Below are positions 1 to 35,702 of a stretch of 37,535 bases of DNA, in pieces. The DNA comes from a virus: positions 1 to 37,535 of IMG/VR virus record IMGVR_UViG_3300044966_000230; one strand, given 5' to 3'. Under the pieces are notes generated by a model. That model was given only the letters and a program-made list of their open reading frames with translations, was not told where the DNA came from and ran no database searches. The stretch's first letter is position 1. Each line of letters opens with the position of its first letter. The position numbers and the translations under genes were made by a program.

Positions 1-668
1 ACGCCCGCCTCGCCAAATTGCACAGCGTGAAATAGTGCGAGGGCTGTTTTACCCATCGAGGGGCGACCCGCTAAGATTATAAGCTCGGGGTGAAAGCCAC
101 CAGTAAAACGATTCAAGGCGCTTAAGCCCGTGTTTAAGCCGCTGGTTTGCCCTGACTGATACAAAGCGGCGCGGCGGTAATATGCTTGCCGTTCTTCGTC
201 GGATAGTTGAGCCATGTTAATGATGTTATCCGTCGGGCTACCGTCCTCGATTAATGAGTTAAGACGCTTTATTATTTCGGTTGCCGTTTCAACGCCGCTG
301 CGCATCGTTCCAATACCTAAAGCCTGTTCGGTTAGTATTGAACTAACGGAGCATTTAATGTGTTCGTCCTTTAGAATTGAGATGTAATCGTTAACGGGTT
401 CGTTATACGATAACTCATTGCCCCAACTTGCAAGCTCTGAAATGTTTTGCGGCGTTAGGCTTTTTTCGGTTTTATTATATTGTGCAATGGTTAGGAGCGT
501 CGGTTGCTTTTCGTCCTTTATGATTGCCTTAATGAGCTTAAAACAACTTAGCGCGGTGGTATCTTGAAACAGATGTTCGCCGAGTTGCGGCATTATCTCT
601 TTATAATTTTCGTCCGCATTTAGGCAAAGAAAAATTAAAGCCTGCTCGATTTTTGGTAGTGGTTTCAT
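1..668 (-). CDS. dnaB: Replicative DNA helicase DnaB, N-terminal part (gene crosses the circular join)
   Basis: This is the 5' part of a DnaB-type hexameric helicase, which unwinds DNA at the phage replication fork. Translation starts at ATG 668-666 and runs off the window at base 1. Because bases 1-127 equal 37409-37535, the frame continues at 37408 and stops at 36691, giving one intact 461-residue protein (668 + 718 nt = 462 codons with stop). The N-terminal ~150 residues (start MKPLPKIEQALIFLCLNADE) are the helical DnaB N-domain. A linker follows, then the RecA-like domain with Walker A GRPSMGKT at about residues 201-208. The start lies downstream of a GC-rich hairpin (681-699). The DUF6291-like organiser at 1026-1718 lies upstream in the same direction. 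Seen directly: frame continuity and motifs; family role is established knowledge. Confidence 0.93.
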   Translation of the reverse strand, partial: MKPLPKIEQALIFLCLNADENYKEIMPQLGEHLFQDTTALSCFKLIKAIIKDEKQPTLLTIAQYNKTEKSLTPQNISELASWGNELSYNEPVNDYISILKDEHIKCSVSSILTEQALGIGTMRSGVETATEIIKRLNSLIEDGSPTDNIINMAQLSDEERQAYYRRAALYQSGQTSGLNTGLSALNRFTGGFHPELIILAGRPSMGKTALALFHAVQFGEAG

Positions 669-680
669 GCGGTAAAAGTT

Positions 681-710
681 GGGCGGTGGTTAGCCGCCCG
701 TTTTTTATTA
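681..710 (-). terminator. GC-rich hairpin between the 75-aa gene and dnaB
   Basis: A 6-bp perfect stem (GGGCGG 681-686 / CCGCCC 694-699) lies directly behind the stop codon of the gene at 708. On the plus strand it is followed by GTTTTTTATT. On the minus strand, the transcribed one, only AACTTTT follows, so it may be a leaky or two-way terminator. The same GGGCGG...TTAGCCGCCC design recurs at 8081-8099 and a relative lies at 7019-7043. Confidence 0.5.
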
Positions 711-935
711 AAATCCAAACTTTTGTTTCATCATTTCACGCTTTGCGGCGTTAAATCCTTTTGTCCACGCATTCATTATTTCAATGCTTGAAGCCTCAAA
801 TTTTGGAGTTTCTCCAATTTTTCTACCTTCTAACATTTTCATAAGTTCAGGGCTTTTTGAAGGTGCTGCCATAATTCCTTTTGCGAAATCTAATGTTCCT
901 AAAATTTCTGCGGTTTGAAGTTGTGTTGCTTTCAT
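708..935 (-). CDS. Small hypothetical protein with its own promoter (moron-like)
   Basis: A 75-residue protein of unknown function, beginning MKATQLQTAEILGTLDFAKG. It is soluble, lysine/methionine-rich and shows no motif I recognise. I chose ATG 935. The frame is open further up to 974, but those 13 extra codons would begin inside the -7 promoter element TATGTTTG (964-971), and the same leader precedes the genes at 8110 and 17438. Promoter, short AT-rich leader, single gene and following hairpin make a self-contained transcription unit between the replication organiser and dnaB. Function unknown; a host-takeover or superinfection role is possible but only inferred from the layout. Confidence 0.72.
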   Translation of the reverse strand: MKATQLQTAEILGTLDFAKGIMAAPSKSPELMKMLEGRKIGETPKFEASSIEIMNAWTKGFNAAKREMMKQKFGF

Positions 936-963
936 TGTGTAAGTGTTTAAGAGTTTGATGCAG

Positions 964-994
964 CAAACATACAACTCTTTTTTGATTCTGCAAA
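964..994 (-). promoter_or_regulatory. Bacteroidota-type promoter for the gene at 708-935
   Basis: On the minus strand, TTTG (994-991), a 19-nt spacer and TATGTTTG (971-964) match the Bacteroidota housekeeping promoter (-33 TTTG, -7 TAnnTTTG). Transcription should start near 957. The leader contains a TTAAAC element and a TTACACA element before ATG 935, as in the units at 8368-8398 and 17871-17901. Confidence 0.82.
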
Positions 995-1025
995 CTTTTT
1001 CTAAATTATTTTAAAAATATTTTTG

Positions 1026-1718
1026 TCATTGCATCTTTAGCCCCATCGAGGCGCGTGTTACTGTTGAGGTTTGCGGTTGTTTAGGATTGTTGTTTTTATT
1101 TGGTTCGAATAAGCCTTTATAGTTACCCTCAATGCTTCGTGCGATTCCATCGAGCGCCTCTTGTTCTGTTTTATAAATTTGAGGCATTTTTTTCATCAAA
1201 GATTTAATACCTAAAGTAGTCGGGTAATCTTTGTTCGTTATTCGATTAATCAAAAAATCTTTAAAGGCTTCGTTTAGTTTTTCGCTTTTTTCAAAAAATG
1301 TCATACCCCTTATTTCAATAACTGATTTAAAAACCCTATTTTCTTTTTTAACATTTTCATTTACATTAACACTTACACTTACATTATCACTATCACTATC
1401 ACTATCAGCTTCGTTTGCTAAGGTTTGCTTAGCAAATTTAGCATTTGCTTTTTTTGCTTGTTTTTGCTTGCCTTTGCTTAAACCACCTTTTTTACCAGCC
1501 TCTTTACGCTTTTCACAAGTAGATAAATATTTTTCTTTATCTCGGTCAAGTGTATTTTTTATAGGATTAAAAAGAAAAAATAAAGGGTTTTCAGGTGTGA
1601 TTGTTTTACCTTCAATCATATATTCAAATATGATAGTAGTTAGTTCTCCAAGCTGGCTTTTATCAAGATACTTTATTGTATCCCATAAATCACAGTATAA
1701 TATAAATGATGCTTTCAT
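1026..1718 (-). CDS. Phage replication organiser-like protein (DUF6291 type)
   Basis: A 230-residue protein whose N-terminus (MKASFILYCDLWDTIKYLDK, then SQLGELTTIIFEYM) resembles DUF6291, a family found in phages next to replication genes. Residues 1-60 form this domain. A basic, lysine/glycine-rich stretch follows (about 68-98), then a low-complexity linker of alternating Asp/Ser and Val/Asn encoded by hexamer repeats (1385-1407), then a helical C-terminal domain. Position just before dnaB and the two-domain shape fit a protein that binds origin DNA and recruits the helicase; this is inference by analogy to replisome organisers. The start overlaps the stop of the gene at 1718-1933. AT-richer than most of the window. 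Confidence 0.68.
   Translation of the reverse strand: MKASFILYCDLWDTIKYLDKSQLGELTTIIFEYMIEGKTITPENPLFFLFNPIKNTLDRDKEKYLSTCEKRKEAGKKGGLSKGKQKQAKKANAKFAKQTLANEADSDSDSDNVSVSVNVNENVKKENRVFKSVIEIRGMTFFEKSEKLNEAFKDFLINRITNKDYPTTLGIKSLMKKMPQIYKTEQEALDGIARSIEGNYKGLFEPNKNNNPKQPQTSTVTRASMGLKMQ
1385..1407. repeat. Short hexanucleotide tandem repeat (TATCAC)x3.8
   Basis: Nearly four direct copies of TATCAC inside the gene at 1026-1718, flanked by degenerate relatives (TTACAC, ACATTA) over about 1360-1410. On the coding strand they specify an alternating Ser/Asp linker passing into Val/Ser and Val/Asn. Because the unit is 6 bp, copy-number slippage would change linker length without shifting the frame. 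Confidence 0.85.
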
Positions 1719-1933
1719 TAGAAAATAATTCCGAATGTATCCTTATTGTCATCTGAAAATAACTGAATACCTCTTTGTATCCAATATGCCCTTTTTTTAT
1801 ATCTTAAAAGGTTTTCAATAGCGGTTGTATATTCACCATCACATTCACAAGCTCTACGCTCTAAATGTATTTGTTTCTCAATAGCTGCATTGATTAACGC
1901 CTCTTCGATTTGTTCTAAATAATTAGTTTCCAT
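1718..1933 (-). CDS. Small hypothetical helical protein
   Basis: A 71-residue, mostly helical protein starting METNYLEQIEEALINAAIEK, with a Cys-Glu-Cys (CEC) near residue 29 and a lysine/arginine-rich middle. No family recognised. I chose ATG 1933; the frame is open to 2005, but that extension lies inside the hairpin at 1947-2009 and would encode Arg/Pro-rich sequence from stem DNA. The start codon sits only 3 nt after the T-run of the hairpin, so expression probably depends on read-through or attenuation there. Its stop overlaps the start of the replication organiser, suggesting coupled translation. Confidence 0.65.
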   Translation of the reverse strand: METNYLEQIEEALINAAIEKQIHLERRACECDGEYTTAIENLLRYKKRAYWIQRGIQLFSDDNKDTFGIIF

Positions 1934-1935
1934 AT

Positions 1936-2009
1936 TAAAAAAAATACCCTTTGGTGGCTGCGGTCGAAGCGGCTCGGTTGTTAAACCTTGCCTCGCAGCC
2001 CTCAAAGGG
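1936..2009 (-). terminator. Strong intrinsic terminator or attenuator just upstream of a start codon
   Basis: Two nested perfect stems: CCCTTTG (1947-1953) with CAAAGGG (2003-2009), then, after a 2x2 internal loop, GGCTGCG (1956-1962) with CGCAGCC (1994-2000). On the minus strand the stem is followed by UAUUUUUUUU (1937-1946), which makes a textbook terminator for the operon ending with the gene at 2071. The next ATG (1933) is 3 nt beyond the T-run, an arrangement typical of attenuators. No clear promoter lies between hairpin and gene. Confidence 0.75.
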
Positions 2010-2070
2010 CTTCAAGATTTTTTAAACTACATTCAGGCTTCGACCTCTGAAAGTTTAAATATACTAAAAA

Positions 2071-2865
2071 TTACATATTTACGCCACACATTTCCAAACA
2101 GTTTTTACAATTGCCAAAATATGTTTTCTTATTAAACTTCGATACATACGTTTTCTTACCTAAAAACTTTGTTTTGTGTATGTTTATAACACCACTTTTT
2201 ACGAGCTGGTTGTTTTTAGAACTTCTAAACACCGTATCCAAAACCTCATACTTATTAAATATTTGCGCCTGTATTTCTGAAAACGTTTTACCATCATTTG
2301 AATCAGTATTAAAGTCGAATGAAACTACCCTTAAAATTGATTTACAATAAGGTTTAATTCTTTCATACTCATTCAAACATAAATCGAGTTGGCTTTTATC
2401 ATCAATTGCAGAAACTGAAGTATTAATACAAATTTTTAGCTTCGATATTCTTTTAAGTTGGTCATCAGTTAAAACAGTCCAATGCTTAGTTATTATAACT
2501 ATTTCTTTTCGACTATCCTCTTTAAACATATCTAACTGAATATTGCTTTGTATTTTTTCGCATATCAAAATAGTATGCTCCCAGTCTTCGGACGGGTCGC
2601 CCATCGTACCCATCCGAATAAAAGGCATCTTAACTTTACTTATCTCTCTTTTAATCTTATCTAACTGCTTTTGGCTCGTAAAGTTCTTTATAACTGTTTT
2701 GCTGAAATTATAGCCGTAAATTTTAGCAATGCGCGCGGCGTAACAATCATTATAACATCCTAACTTATTGTTTTTAGTTCCTGAAGAACAGCCAGCCGTA
2801 GGGTCTATTGAATAAATACCGCGCGCATTTTTGGTTAATGCTATAACATTCGAATAGGTTTTCAT
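2071..2865 (-). CDS. Cysteine-rich protein, DUF5131/radical-SAM-like, partner of the methyltransferase
   Basis: A 264-residue protein with an N-terminal cysteine cluster, GCSSGTKNNKLGCYNDCYAAR (about residues 25-45) shortened here as GC-x10-GCYNDCYA, resembling the GC...GCxxCYA signature of DUF5131-type proteins, and a C-terminal CKNCLEMCG cluster. Between them are segments reading like a TIM-barrel (MPFIRMGTMGDPSED; IVIITKHW; ICINTSVSA). Such clusters often bind an Fe-S centre or zinc; I cannot tell which. ATG 2865 overlaps the stop of the GNAT-methyltransferase gene (TAATG), so the two are translated together and probably act in one DNA-modification pathway. The operon ends at the hairpin 1936-2009. 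Family assignment tentative. Confidence 0.6.
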   Translation of the reverse strand: MKTYSNVIALTKNARGIYSIDPTAGCSSGTKNNKLGCYNDCYAARIAKIYGYNFSKTVIKNFTSQKQLDKIKREISKVKMPFIRMGTMGDPSEDWEHTILICEKIQSNIQLDMFKEDSRKEIVIITKHWTVLTDDQLKRISKLKICINTSVSAIDDKSQLDLCLNEYERIKPYCKSILRVVSFDFNTDSNDGKTFSEIQAQIFNKYEVLDTVFRSSKNNQLVKSGVINIHKTKFLGKKTYVSKFNKKTYFGNCKNCLEMCGVNM

Positions 2866-4265
2866 TATAAGCGCCCAACGTTTGGAAATAGGTCTTTAAT
2901 TTTGTTAGGGTCGCCCTTAAAAAACGCGTATACCTTTTGCTCGCATTTGGGGTACTTTCTTGAGTTTAGCGTTTTCTTAGCAGTTGCGCGGCGGGTAAAT
3001 TCGCTTTCTAAATACACGATTCTGTTATAAATATGCAGCCCTTGACTTTTAAAAAATAATTCGTGTTCGGCTTCGCATCCATAATAACCGCCTTTACTAT
3101 CGCGACTATCTCCAGTCATAACGACAAAGAAAGTATTATCATTCATTACCGAAATAGCTTTTTTATAACCTTCAAAAAGTAAATCTCTAAACTCGTCGTA
3201 AGTTGGCAAAGTGTTTAATTCACCGTCGGGCGATTTGCCGTCGTAATCAATATACTTTTCTACTTTATAATAAGGTGGGCAAGAAAATATTAAATCGAAT
3301 TTTTCGGGGTTTTTAGGTAAGTATTTTGAACTATCGGATTGAACCCATTTAACGTTATAAAAGTCCTGACAAATGGCATTATTTGCGTCGCATTGGTTTT
3401 CTCTAATTTCAGAGGATAGATATTCAAAACCGCACCCGCCAGCTACAAAACCCATTTGAACTCCGCCGCCGAATGGATTATAAACCCTCACGCCGTTTTT
3501 TGGCATAAACATTTTTACTATTATCTCACACAATGCAGGGTCTAAAACACTTGCATTGCCGTTTAGGTCTTTGCCTTTATCGGTTATAATTTCGTCGTCT
3601 TTTACAACTTGTTTAGATAAAACTACGTTGCTCATTCCGCTGCTACCTTGCCAGCAACCCTCGCGGCTTGCAAACTTTGGATTAGGTACGTTATACTTTA
3701 ACCCAGCCGCCTCAATTTTTTCGTTCCATTCTCTTTTAATCTTTAACCATTCGCCGCTCGTTGATTGCCATAAATTAGTCATAGCCATATGACAAAGTTT
3801 TTTTACACGCACTTGTTCAGGTTGCCCGTAGTACATATAAACGAAATCCGACTTTTCTAAATTCACTTTAAAGCCTAAAGCCGTAAATACTTTTGGATTT
3901 TCTAAATCATGCTTTTTAGATACCGTCATTATCATTACATAGTTATCAGTATTTTGCTTAATGATTTCAGAAACCATCATCGAATAAATGGTTTTATCTT
4001 TATACTCGGGATACATTGCCGACTGAAGCAAGCAAAACTCTTTTACAACGTGGTTAACCTCGTAAGTAAAAAAGCCCGCAAAATTGCCGTCAATCTCACA
4101 AATAATAGCTGAGTTCTTTTGCATATTCTTTCTTGCGGCTCGATATGCTACGCCATCCAATAAAGCAAGTTCGGCTACTTTTACTTCATAGCCCGAGCCT
4201 ATTACCGAATTAACTTTTTTAATTTCGATTTTTGGCTCAAATAGTTGTGTTTGTTTTGTGTTCAT
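2865..4265 (-). CDS. GNAT-like domain fused to a DNA methyltransferase
   Basis: A 466-residue two-domain protein. Residues ~25-150 look like a GNAT fold (SAIICEIDGNFAGFFTYEV, then FCLLQSAMYPEYKDKTIYSM and a C-terminal ALGF), though the usual acetyl-CoA RGxG loop is not evident. Residues ~190-466 are a Rossmann DNA aminomethyltransferase: SAM-binding VYNPFGGGVQMGF (near 265) and catalytic IFSCPPYY (near 335), the CPPY form of the N4/N6 motif IV. It should methylate adenine or cytosine amino groups, or act with the GNAT part in a larger base modification such as Mom-type carbamoylmethylation (inference). The following cysteine-rich gene starts on its stop codon. Substrate sequence unknown. Confidence 0.72.
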   Translation of the reverse strand: MNTKQTQLFEPKIEIKKVNSVIGSGYEVKVAELALLDGVAYRAARKNMQKNSAIICEIDGNFAGFFTYEVNHVVKEFCLLQSAMYPEYKDKTIYSMMVSEIIKQNTDNYVMIMTVSKKHDLENPKVFTALGFKVNLEKSDFVYMYYGQPEQVRVKKLCHMAMTNLWQSTSGEWLKIKREWNEKIEAAGLKYNVPNPKFASREGCWQGSSGMSNVVLSKQVVKDDEIITDKGKDLNGNASVLDPALCEIIVKMFMPKNGVRVYNPFGGGVQMGFVAGGCGFEYLSSEIRENQCDANNAICQDFYNVKWVQSDSSKYLPKNPEKFDLIFSCPPYYKVEKYIDYDGKSPDGELNTLPTYDEFRDLLFEGYKKAISVMNDNTFFVVMTGDSRDSKGGYYGCEAEHELFFKSQGLHIYNRIVYLESEFTRRATAKKTLNSRKYPKCEQKVYAFFKGDPNKIKDLFPNVGRL

Positions 4266-4282
4266 GATTTTTGTGTTTGTGT

Positions 4283-4675
4283 TTATTTGTTTAAATAGTT
4301 TTCAATCGTTTCAATACATTCATCTAACCCCGAGCAAAACAATGCCTCGAAACCAGCGTTTTTAAGCCGCGTAATGACTTCAAATTGTTCGGTAAGGTGT
4401 TCATCTTGCTTTAGCGTTCCATCGCGTTTAAACGGGTTAAAATCGCTTTTTTTTATTTCAATAAATAAACCGCTAAACTTTCCACGCGGGGCAGCGATAA
4501 ATAAATCGGGGTAGCCTCTTTGGGGGTTCATGCTTTTGTGAACCCTTGCTTGTCCCATACTCATTTTAGTTCCTGCGCTAAAGTCAAACCGAAAAAGTAT
4601 TTCGGGGTGCTTTAAGCTCATATAACGGGCAATGGCAGAATAAATATCGCTTTCGCGTGGCGGGCGGCGTTTCAT
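4283..4675 (-). CDS. VRR-NUC domain nuclease
   Basis: A 130-residue single-domain nuclease of the VRR-NUC branch of the PD-(D/E)XK superfamily. The N-terminal acidic residue is in RESDIYSAIARYM. The core motif is GYPDLFIAAPRGKFSGLFIE followed by IKK (about residues 54-76), giving the catalytic D...E-x-K. The C-terminal helix has Q-x-EV and ends near FEALFCSGLDECIETIENY, typical of the family. Phage VRR-NUC proteins probably act as structure-specific DNA nucleases during replication and recombination. Starts by ATGA overlap with the gene upstream, in the recombination/nuclease operon running from 7.7 to 4.3 kb. Confidence 0.85.
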   Translation of the reverse strand: MKRRPPRESDIYSAIARYMSLKHPEILFRFDFSAGTKMSMGQARVHKSMNPQRGYPDLFIAAPRGKFSGLFIEIKKSDFNPFKRDGTLKQDEHLTEQFEVITRLKNAGFEALFCSGLDECIETIENYLNK

Positions 4676-33116: not shown

Positions 33117-33457
33117 ACTACGCACTCCATTAAGTTAATTACTTCGGGTTCTTCGCTTATTATTTCAATGTTCGCCACGCTAAAGCTAATACAATCGTAT
33201 TCCACTTCGCATATCGTAAACTTATTGCAGCCAGCTAATTCGATTGTATAGCCTTGCCCGTTATCTATCTTCGCTCCCGTAATGGTTAGCAGCCCGTCAA
33301 TATCGGATTCGGCGTTAAACGCTTGCAGCTTATTCGTTGCGTTGCTTTTTAGCGTTATGGTGTAGCTTGTTTCGGGTTCTACAAATCCGAACGCTATACC
33401 GCCGTTACAGTAAGCTACTTGAATGCCTGAATCGAAGCAAGGTGAACAAACGCTCAT
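33104..33457 (-). CDS. Hypothetical cysteine-rich protein after the terminase
   Basis: A 117-residue beta-rich protein starting MSVCSPCFDSGIQVAYCNGG and ending LMECVVCNG, so CxxC pairs lie at both ends. The middle is beta sequence (TSYTITLKSNATNKLQAFNA). Similar N-terminal CxxC pairs occur in the 179-aa and 342-aa virion proteins here, so it is probably a virion component, such as a connector or tail-end protein. ATGA overlap with the terminase stop. Confidence 0.6.
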   Translation of the reverse strand: MSVCSPCFDSGIQVAYCNGGIAFGFVEPETSYTITLKSNATNKLQAFNAESDIDGLLTITGAKIDNGQGYTIELAGCNKFTICEVEYDCISFSVANIEIISEEPEVINLMECVVCNG

Positions 33458-34770
33458 AGGTATCGTTTAAGTATTGCGTTTACAAAGTAACGAAAACAAT
33501 CTAAAAAGTCGGCACGCTCTGAAATGTTTTTTCGGTTGCTCTTTATTATTTGCCCGTCCGCGTTGCATTGCACTTGCTTAGCGTCGAAAACAAAGCCTTT
33601 GCAGTTTTTACTATTAACGCGTATATCGAGTTTCTTTAGCGCGGTATTGCAATCAATACGGCTGTTAACGTGGCGCGGGTTCGCTGGTATTATTATTTGA
33701 TTATCGGCTAACTTGAGGCGGCGTTTAATCTGAATGTAAGCGCTTGAGTTATCGCGTTCCTGTATTGTACCGCCTTTGCCCATTGCGTCGCCTGTTATGC
33801 GTATTAGCCCCGTTGGTATGTTCAATGCTTCGACCGCATCGCAGAACGCATCTATTGAGCCGCGCTCTATCTTTATTTCATCCACTACCGTAGCCGAACT
33901 GCCAACGTTTTGAATAACCAAAGCGCATAACGGGTTAATGTTAAAATCGACGCTTATAAACGTCGGTAAATGCGCGTTATGTGTTACGCTATCGTCGATG
34001 TGCTTTTCATCGCTCCATGCGTATAGGAACGGGTTAGCAACGTCGTCTAATACGTCCCAGTCGCCCTCGACGAATCGAGCGTATTGAATAGGCGGTAATT
34101 CCTTTAGCGCTTCGAGGTATTCGGGCGCGATGTGTGGGTTATCTGTTATACGGCTCGGTATGTAAGCCCACCGTTCGGGTAATGTGTTTTCGCGGTATCG
34201 GTTGTATATAATCGACTTAACCCAGTTTTGCGCTGGGTTGCACGTTGCGAGGCAAACGATAGGCGGTTTACCGTGCGCTTTATTCCAACTGCCTATACGT
34301 TCCTGAACTTTGTAGAATGTTACTTCTTGTAATTCGTTTACCTCATCTAAGCCCGCGCCGTTAATCTCTAAACCTCGAAAGCGGTTTAAATCTTTATCGT
34401 CGTCAAACGATTCTGCCATGAACATAAGCTCCGAACCGTTTGTGAATGTTATAACGTTTGTTTCCCTATTCCAGTTCTTAACATAGCTGCTTACCCCGTC
34501 CATCATTATCGAGGCAAAGCTCGGGAACGTGGTACGCTTTAAGTCAGGTAGGCTTTTACGAATAACCGCCCATCGGCTGCGCGGGTACGTTAAACAAAGC
34601 GATGTTAGAGTTAATAGAAGCCAATACGTTTTACCGCCGCGAATCTTTGCCCCCACACTTTCGAGCGGGGGCGGTTATCGTATAGCGCCCCCGAAGACAA
34701 TTACTCTTTTGTCCCCGTTGGTCGCCATGTCGAAGGCTGTGGTTTGTGTTTCAGTTAATGTAAATTGCAT
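33454..34770 (-). CDS. terL: Large terminase, interrupted in Walker A by a stop codon and 36-nt insert
   Basis: The DNA-packaging ATPase and nuclease. Starting at ATG 34770 the frame reads MQFTLTETQTTAFDMATNGD then KRVIVFGGAIR and meets TAA (34677-34675). In the same frame 36 nt later it reads R-GGKTYWLLL... to the stop at 33454. Skipping the insert gives a normal 425-residue protein with Walker A GAIRGGKT. Other motifs are intact: Walker B with GAGLDEVNEL, coupling motif LATCNP, nuclease acids in FISVDFNINP, RITGDAMGKGG and SERADFLDCFRYF. A GTG at 34656 could start a 400-residue form, but that lacks the beta strand before the P-loop. Either translation bypasses the insert, or the gene is broken or starts internally. 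Intactness of the rest argues for function. Confidence 0.85.
34639..34677 (-). other. Candidate translational bypass element in terL
   Basis: Starts with UAA right after codons AUA CGA (Ile-Arg) and ends with landing codons AUU CGC (Ile-Arg). Skipping 36 nt from CGA to CGC keeps frame and protein. Fold 1: GGGGGCG (34692-34686, before the stop) pairs with CGCCCCC (34673-34667), placing CGA and UAA in the loop. Fold 2: GCCCCC (34672-34667) pairs with GGGGGC (34654-34649), extended by further pairs and capped by a GAAA tetraloop (34662-34659). The two folds exclude each other. T4 gene 60 bypass also has a stop after the take-off codon, a tetraloop hairpin and matching codons. One tRNA-Arg (ICG) can read both CGA and CGC. 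Confidence 0.6.
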
Positions 34771-35275
34771 AGCTTTTTATATTACGCATTGCTACGCTTT
34801 TGCATACTCCTAATTTATCAGCAATTGATTTATAGCTCATGCCTAACTTTCTTAGTAAATACATTTGCTCAATTTGCTCTTTTGTTCGTTTAGTCCTGTG
34901 GCTATCAATTGACCTTTTAGCCTTAATCAAACCATTATCAAATGCGTGCTTAATGTTTTCGGAATTAGTAACCCATTCAAGGTTTTCGATACGGTTATTC
35001 TGTTTATTGCCGTCTTTGTGATTAACCATAGGCTTATTCAATTCATTGCTTAAAAACGTTTCAGCAACTAATCGATGCACTTTAAATGTCGTGTGCTTGC
35101 CTAAGTGCTTAAATGCTACTCTTAAATAACCTTTTTTATCTTTTGCAGGCTTTAGGGTTTTGCCTTTTGCATTGATATACTTATCCAAATATTTAACCTT
35201 TCGGTCTATTGTTCGAACATTACCAAAGTTAGAAACCTCAACCTCTGAATTAAATGATTTCCAAATTTCATTCAT
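34751..35275 (-). CDS. HNH homing endonuclease (NUMOD4-HNH-HTH)
   Basis: A 174-residue free-standing homing endonuclease. Order: NUMOD4 (IWKSFNSEVEVSNFGNVRTI, ~3-25), HNH nuclease (VHRLVAETFL...MVNHKDGNKQNNRIENLEWV, ~63-105) with the catalytic H-N-x(8)-N pattern, and a C-terminal helix-turn-helix (KEQIEQMYLLRKLGMSYKSI then ADKLGVCKSVAMRNIKSY) for target binding. It is AT-richer than its neighbours, as expected for a mobile gene. It overlaps the small terminase stop by 8 nt and the first 20 nt of terL. The likely target is terL, given the bypass element 70-110 bp downstream; this is inference. Confidence 0.92.
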   Translation of the reverse strand: MNEIWKSFNSEVEVSNFGNVRTIDRKVKYLDKYINAKGKTLKPAKDKKGYLRVAFKHLGKHTTFKVHRLVAETFLSNELNKPMVNHKDGNKQNNRIENLEWVTNSENIKHAFDNGLIKAKRSIDSHRTKRTKEQIEQMYLLRKLGMSYKSIADKLGVCKSVAMRNIKSYAIYIN

Positions 35276-35702
35276 TGCTATTATTTTTAGTTTCGGTGCG
35301 AATGATAACGAGCGGTTCGGTAGTGGTTATGGTATTTTCTCCGTTATTGCTCCAACGCCCGCGCTGCCTATTCGCTAACCAATGTTTAGCCGCCGCCGTG
35401 TCAGAGGGTAGCTGCTTGCGTAGCTTTACTACTTCGCCGTCCTTAGTTACCGCTTCCTCGACTATCGTAACACCTAATGCACGCTCATACATCGAGCGCG
35501 CTACTTTAGCGTCCGCGTCCTCTTTGCCGCGTGTTAACGACTCTAAAAATGTGGGCTGGTCGCGTTTCCAATTGTTAAACGTCGCCTCACATATATCGAA
35601 TGCCGCTGCCATTTGCACGTCGTTAAGCCCGAGCAAAGCAAGGTTAAACGCCCGTTCGTCGTATTCGGGTTTATAATCCGTTGGTCTACCTAATTTTTTC
35701 AT
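35268..35702 (-). CDS. terS: Small terminase subunit
   Basis: A 144-residue protein that recognises phage DNA for packaging. The N-terminal helix-turn-helix reads GRPTDYKPEYDERAFNLALL, GLNDVQMAAAFDICEATFNN and WKRDQPTFLESLTRG. A helical oligomerisation region follows, and the C-terminus is Thr/Asn-rich and acidic. It is separated from the large subunit only by the inserted HNH gene. ATGA overlap with the 47-aa gene upstream supports the start. Confidence 0.87.
   Translation of the reverse strand: MKKLGRPTDYKPEYDERAFNLALLGLNDVQMAAAFDICEATFNNWKRDQPTFLESLTRGKEDADAKVARSMYERALGVTIVEEAVTKDGEVVKLRKQLPSDTAAAKHWLANRQRGRWSNNGENTITTTEPLVIIRTETKNNSNE

Follow-up and report, generated by a model that had tools for sequence, protein, structure and literature searches.

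Genes and insert at the terL locus

The window, that is, the whole 37,535-nt stretch of IMG/VR virus record IMGVR_UViG_3300044966_000230 analyzed here, contains a single terL terminase gene, preceded by genes for an HNH homing endonuclease and the terminase small subunit (Table 1). An insert of 36 nt (34677-34642, minus strand) splits terL inside the Walker A motif (VFGGAI-R / GGKTYW), which is uninterrupted in relatives. It consists of a short spacer with an in-frame stop codon, a GC-rich hairpin, termed hairpin B, whose first G also belongs to the spacer, and a linker. The two Arg codons that border the insert, CGA and CGC, could presumably be read by one tRNA-Arg; a search for tRNA genes in the window found none. 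The adjacent HNH gene is likely the mobility partner of the insert. A preliminary description of this DNA had placed the terL stop codon within a bypass-like element made of a take-off codon, a hairpin and a landing codon, a reading that the sequence comparisons below support.

Table 1. Features of the terL locus in the window
Feature	Position	Strand	Description
terminase small subunit gene, terS	35268..35702	-	context; phrog_309
HNH homing endonuclease gene	34751..35275	-	NUMOD4 + HNH_3 + HTH; 20-nt overlap with terL start
terL 5' exon	34678..34770	-	ATG to take-off codon, 31 codons, MQFTLTETQTTAFDMATNGDKRVIVFGGAIR; homologous to uninterrupted terLs
hairpin A	34667..34692	-	stem arms 34692-34686 and 34673-34667; forms when folded alone; lacks conservation
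terL take-off codon CGA	34678..34680	-	Arg of Walker A GGAIRGGKT; final residue homologous to empty alleles ahead of the insert
spacer TAACCG, 6 nt	34672..34677	-	in-frame stop TAA (34677-34675) right after take-off; final G pairs with last C of the stem; the same 6-nt distance in every distinct element as parsed
hairpin B	34649..34672	-	GCCCCCGCTC-GAAA-GTGTGGGGGC, loop 34662-34659; conserved core of the element; z -4.4; covariation in homologous inserts
linker AAAGATT	34642..34648	-	hairpin to landing codon; 5-11 nt in other elements
landing codon CGC (Arg)	34639..34641	-	one tRNA-Arg could presumably read both CGA and this codon
terL 3' exon	33454..34638	-	GGKTYW..., 394 codons plus stop; resumes at GGC 34638; Terminase_6N match

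A family of related inserts

Among 80 terL relatives in IMG/VR, 19 carry an insert and 61 have an uninterrupted P-loop, and filled and empty alleles occur in close relatives. After diverse cases were added through pattern scans and an endonuclease search, 34 distinct inserts of the same kind were collected, most of them on metagenome contigs; all of the material except the cultured comparisons is metagenomic. The hosts are mainly diverse terL genes, in which several codon positions of the P-loop are occupied: after R (CGA or CGG), after I (L099, L161), after A of GGAA (L158, L162, L237, L275, L281), after G of ARG (L152), after the third G of GGG (L166), after G of TSAG (L171) and after G of RRSG (L286). 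Other inserts lie in motif B of the family B polymerase PolB (L232 and L288, with L259 identical) and in DnaE, DNA polymerase III alpha, at PD/IDxDF (LPD/IDTDF in L274). Empty homologues exist for sites other than that of the window as well, in huge-phage PolB, in the DnaE of a Tenacibaculum phage and in the TerL of a Rhizobium phage, and the TerL of Flavobacterium phage 11b is an empty homologue 79% identical to L281.

The relatives of the A-type terL that come from cultured phages carry no insert, and DNA searches with the terL regions of the window, L171 and L099 returned no match in cultured phages. A TAG-pattern scan of genome contigs, which TAG-less prophage copies would escape, gave 27 stretches, none recognized as a terL insert; one further pattern scan added no new gene.

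The polymerase hosts have features of their own. In L232, L259 and L288 the family B polymerase gene is split and the element in motif B goes from CTT to CTA, while the huge-phage PolB relatives LR745206 and LR756502 are split yet empty. The DNA polymerase III alpha gene of L274 (positions 1-4523) is in pieces: an N-terminal open reading frame (ORF) is followed by an ORF of GIY-YIG appearance without a Pfam match (610-1467) and a C-terminal ORF, which holds an intein (Intein_splicing, 8.5e-11) in addition to the bypass element at PD/IDTDF. In Tenacibaculum phage Larrie the same gene is annotated as two adjacent coding sequences.

Common layout and the conserved hairpin

All these inserts follow a common plan: a take-off codon, 6 nt usually with an in-frame stop, a GCCCC...GGGGGC hairpin, a linker of 5 to 11 nt and a landing codon, with gaps of 34 to 42 nt across the family. 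The hairpins are 24 to 26 nt long, with a loop of usually 4 to 6 nt and a CCCC/GGGGG base (GCCCC/GGGGGC in most), a base that was itself ascertained by the GCCCC/GGGGG patterns used in the search, as was part of the TAG excess. In every insertion class, 6 nt separate CCCC from the end of the last codon that is shared by homology with the empty allele; in L046, L079 and L136 the codon after take-off is homologous to the empty allele too.

A stop occurs in 17 of the 21 distinct take-off/spacer pairs (at +1 in 5, at +2 in 12, none in 4), or in 15 of 19 when the two spacers found through the TAG pattern are set aside. A stop immediately after take-off, as in the window (TAA), is therefore no strict rule of the family. 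Since the stop is the second codon in 12 spacers and absent from 4, the ribosome would have to leave with a sense codon in its A site, unlike in T4. The landing codon repeats the first two bases of the take-off codon in 31 of 34 elements and all three in 11. The exceptions are UGA in L098 and L143 and GUA in L162, in which the first two bases differ by C-to-U changes only, so that pairing with an anticodon G would still be possible. Judged from these codons, one peptidyl-tRNA could pair with both take-off and landing sites. Take-off from the +1 codon where the stop stands at +2 was considered and rejected, as the P-loop would gain or exchange a residue, mostly with no matching landing codon; it is possible only in L046/L079 and L136 (GGT-GGT and GGC-GGC), where the protein is the same either way.

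In all 34 elements, take-off lies about 25 to 38 codons past a plausible start codon, and in T4 it is codon 46. For terL this proximity follows from the position of Walker A. The PolB and DnaE elements lie within the downstream pieces of split genes, and proximity to a start may be required for bypass. When the 5' exons were viewed side by side, no nascent-peptide signal common to the families was evident.

The preliminary description had also reported three short blocks that can pair in two ways, and these are present where it placed them on the minus strand: GGGGGCG (34692-34686), CGCCCCC (34673-34667) and GGGGGC (34654-34649). Folded alone, the first two form hairpin A (7 bp, -14.7 kcal/mol for 34692-34667) with CGA-UAA in a 12-nt loop, and the last two form hairpin B, a longer stem of 9 bp capped by GAAA (-17.6 kcal/mol for the 26-nt segment), both as proposed. 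None of 200 shuffles was as stable as hairpin B (34672-34649; z -4.4), compared with 5 of 200 for hairpin A (z -2.3), and no other strong hairpin of the GCCCC/GGGGG type occurs in the 37.5-kb window. Hairpin B exceeds chance.

The covariation across homologous inserts that the same description had called for is found in hairpin B, whose stem shows compensatory changes. Among the 13 hairpins with a length of 26 nt, pairing holds in 90% of cells and 18 cells are double changed versus 7.2 after shuffling (0/500), with a covariation score of 0.378 against a maximum of 0.201 in slid registers; in the 8 hairpins of 24 nt, 97.5% are paired and 6 are double changed versus 1.7 (2/500), these shuffle counts not being probabilities, since the hairpin sequences are partly related. 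The outer 5 pairs are invariant in both sets and belonged to the search pattern, so the evidence comes from the inner pairs. Hairpin B is thus an mRNA stem-loop within the gap, with a presumably stimulatory role.

Probable ribosomal bypass and its alternatives

The insert is very probably a mobile translational bypass element that works like T4 gene 60 and MobA with another hairpin layout, as far as can be judged from sequence comparison. Ribosomes would translate terL to Arg CGA, codon 31, and then meet the GC-rich hairpin that starts in the 6-nt spacer. The peptidyl-tRNA-Arg would quit CGA, pass over the 36-nt gap and re-pair with CGC, and translation would pick up at GGC GGT AAA to give an intact Walker A (VFGGAIRGGKTYW) and a full-length TerL. 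We infer both this order of take-off and landing and the removal of the gap by the ribosome, not by RNA processing. Several observations count against this reading: the three imperfectly matched landing codons, the spacers with a late stop or none, the lack of a nascent-peptide signal common to the families, the filled loci that have no recognized endonuclease, the metagenomic origin of most elements and the search by stem pattern.

Could the gap instead be excised from the RNA? A minimal, intron-like excision of a new type would give the same product; the landing codon match is imperfect in some elements, and elements placed at active-site motifs together with homing endonucleases resemble introns. 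However, the inserts are just 34 to 42 nt long and have no Rfam match (window positions 34400-35000, E values up to 1). Excision would need neither the codon phase kept at every position, nor a stop within two codons in 17 of 21 spacers, nor the repetition of the take-off dinucleotide at the landing site. A spacing that is constant in phase, stops that are in frame and the repetition of codons fit the ribosome rather than RNA excision, which we regard as improbable. A group I or group II intron was rejected, the 36-nt insert having no catalytic core and no Rfam match.

A second proposal, that of the preliminary description, concerns how bypass would be driven: hairpin A followed by hairpin B, as a two-state switch, would promote take-off. 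Both hairpins do fold in the window with the isolated energies given above, and T4 uses an extra 5' stem-loop (PMC5009743, PMC11194080). Against the switch, hairpin A would itself lie under a ribosome whose P site is occupied by CGA, the C-block of the window pairs within hairpin B with a probability of 0.99 when all blocks are folded together, and B prevails in 27 of 27 co-folded elements, holding the C-arm with probabilities of 0.71 to 1.0. Hairpin A is not conserved: its upstream arm varies as Gly is encoded by synonymous codons (GGT GGT in L046, L079, L104 and L143), tracking the codon usage of empty genes, in which GGGGGC is the most frequent Gly-Gly pair (20 of 46 uninterrupted terLs). 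For the most part it arises incidentally, from G-rich Gly-Gly codons that stand opposite the C-arm. Because the upstream G-block is ordinary Gly-Gly coding, present in empty alleles too, the switch finds no support and is very improbable. The direct repeat formed by the first and third blocks, previously taken as a hint of how the insert arose, is uninformative for the same reason: the first belongs to the host gene and the third to the insert, and their likeness is a coincidence.

Still less probable is that the filled terL is inactive or an assembly artifact and that TerL comes from another source. Cultured comparisons aside, the elements come from metagenomes, and on one 52-kb contig (IMGVR_UViG_3300044695_002763) about 36 kb separate a filled terL from an empty one (L007 and L012), probably two strains merged by assembly around a circular map. 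The same inserts nevertheless recur in many independent samples, and the window record has one terL only. Selection weighs against inactivity as well. The ratio of nonsynonymous to synonymous substitution rates, dN/dS, is far below 1 in both exons of filled pairs wherever dS could be estimated, except in the short 5' exon of L232/L288 (0.56, from 5 differences), and in the 3' exon it is 0.016 to 0.11 in filled pairs with measurable dS. The lowest value belongs to L098/L143 (dS 1.07; 132 synonymous and 15 nonsynonymous differences), whose gaps differ by 1 nt. By these substitution patterns, both exons are under purifying selection.

Least probable of all is a working TerL produced by stop-codon read-through or from a downstream start at GTG 34656: the gap of the window keeps the frame, with a single stop, and that GTG is in frame, but gaps of all three frame classes occur (shift modulo 3 of 0 in 14 elements, 2 in 10 and 1 in 10), so that read-through could not restore the frame in 20 of 34, of which 16 also have no in-frame start before landing, while in L046/L079 a TAA stands immediately ahead of the landing codon and either product would break Walker A, yet the 5' exon is under selection.

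Endonuclease linkage and co-conversion

HNH genes lie directly upstream of terL in the window and in L002, L003, L017, L020, L021, L027, L080, L106, L115, L128, L152, L158, L162, L166, L214, L215 and L237, and those adjoining terL in the window, L002, L106, L115, L152, L158, L162, L166, L214 and L237 are HNH_3 genes; in L171 a PHROG profile identifies a homing endonuclease. Within the 80 terL relatives, matches to the window HNH protein occur beside filled terLs only (7 of 19 filled versus 0 of 61 empty), and its four closest relatives (55 to 78%) are all next to filled terLs. Many filled loci have no recognized endonuclease neighbor.

Filled-empty pairs share 80 to 98% identity in most flanking bins and 62 to 68% in the 60 nt that cover most of the 5' exon, a drop that is absent from filled-filled and empty-empty pairs. 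dS is likewise lower in the 5' than in the 3' exon (0.22 versus 1.07 in L098/L143; 0.09 versus 2.29 in L232/L288). This identity drop and the low 5' exon dS are the signature of co-conversion of the 5' exon with the insert. Empty sites and co-conversion of the flank, the two marks of a mobile cassette, both appear in these comparisons.

The inserts thus appear to spread between phages with a DNA-cutting enzyme. By analogy with T4 MobA, the target of the HNH endonuclease would be the empty terL site: the enzyme would cut an uninterrupted terL at a conserved site, repair would copy the endonuclease gene, the 5' exon and the insert into the cut gene, and the insert would then shield the site.

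Relation to known bypass systems

T4 gene 60, run as a control, showed GGA-TAG, a UUCG-loop hairpin built on the take-off codon and a landing GGA after 50 nt, with the site inside TDADHDG and mobA annotated as HNH nearby. It shares with the present inserts a noncoding gap, a stop after take-off, a GC hairpin with a tetraloop, a matching landing codon, a conserved active-site motif near the ORF start and a linked HNH homing endonuclease (in T4 MobA, between genes 39 and 60). In PMC5009743 and PMC11194080, gene 60 is described with a 50-nt gap, a hairpin on the take-off codon, a perfect GGA match and a requirement for the nascent peptide and a 5' stem-loop. In contrast, the hairpin of the present inserts begins 5 nt past take-off and occupies most of a gap of 34 to 42 nt, the stop is often the second codon, the match often extends to two bases only, and several genes and insertion positions are involved. 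The inserts may well work like gene 60, for which common descent with T4 is not needed.

The byp elements of Magnusiomyces capitatus mitochondria are likewise many short inserts skipped during translation. They are mitochondrial and said in PMC5009743 to be independent of mRNA context, whereas the present inserts lie in bacteriophage genes and have a conserved hairpin sequence and linked endonucleases. Two further cases are set apart by their descriptions in that review, as far as its relevant passages go: the terminase of Streptomyces phage Hau3, a proposed bypass termed "likely bypassing," has a much shorter gap tied to a UUA codon, with no hairpin element or endonuclease mentioned there, and plaA of Prevotella loescheii, with a reported 29-nt translational hop in Bacteroidota, is a single bacterial gene (PMC5009743).

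Efficient bypassing, studied among phages in T4 gene 60 alone, was considered apparently unique to that gene in a 2010 review (PMC3014915), and T4 and yeast mitochondria are the only cases named in a 2024 paper (PMC11194080). From the sequences compared here, phage bypassing, solidly known from T4 gene 60 alone, appears to be a recurrent family. Mobile bypass elements are probably widespread in bacteriophages and previously undescribed in the open PMC literature, with hairpin inserts acting as ribosome-level introns that travel with more than one kind of endonuclease, occupy codons of the active site in terL, PolB and DnaE and function only close to the ORF start (codons 25 to 46), even if the gene must be split for it. 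Filled and empty alleles of natural elements would open bypass to comparison, mutation and classification, and such comparison addresses the rules of hairpin, spacing and codon by which a ribosome is released and lands. Split or "frameshifted" phage terminase and polymerase genes may then be intact, and homing endonucleases could persist next to essential genes with neither intron nor intein.

Other sequence features

Some recurrent sequences resemble the inserts in form. Repeats of the form CCCCTGAATCCCCCTAGGGGGC (L091 and others) fit the search pattern and were rejected as bypass inserts, being located after a stop and unrelated to them. The repeat CCCCTGAATCCCCCTAGGGGGCAAATCAGGGTTAGGGGGC stands straight after a stop codon in L091, L092, L101, L108, L109, L111, L118, L121, L123, L129, L135 and others. 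The hairpin GCCCCCGGTTTTTACGCCGGGGGC, identical in many contigs (L229, L234, L236, L243, L246, L247, L250, L264, L273, L278, L283, L284, L285), follows a stop (EVKK*) just ahead of the open frame of a 347-amino-acid ORF (QLNKEWAMQIPESDHS...) and is perhaps a terminator or a leader. Elsewhere in the window, the minus-strand gene at 2865-4265 matches phage DNA methyltransferases (phrog_498).
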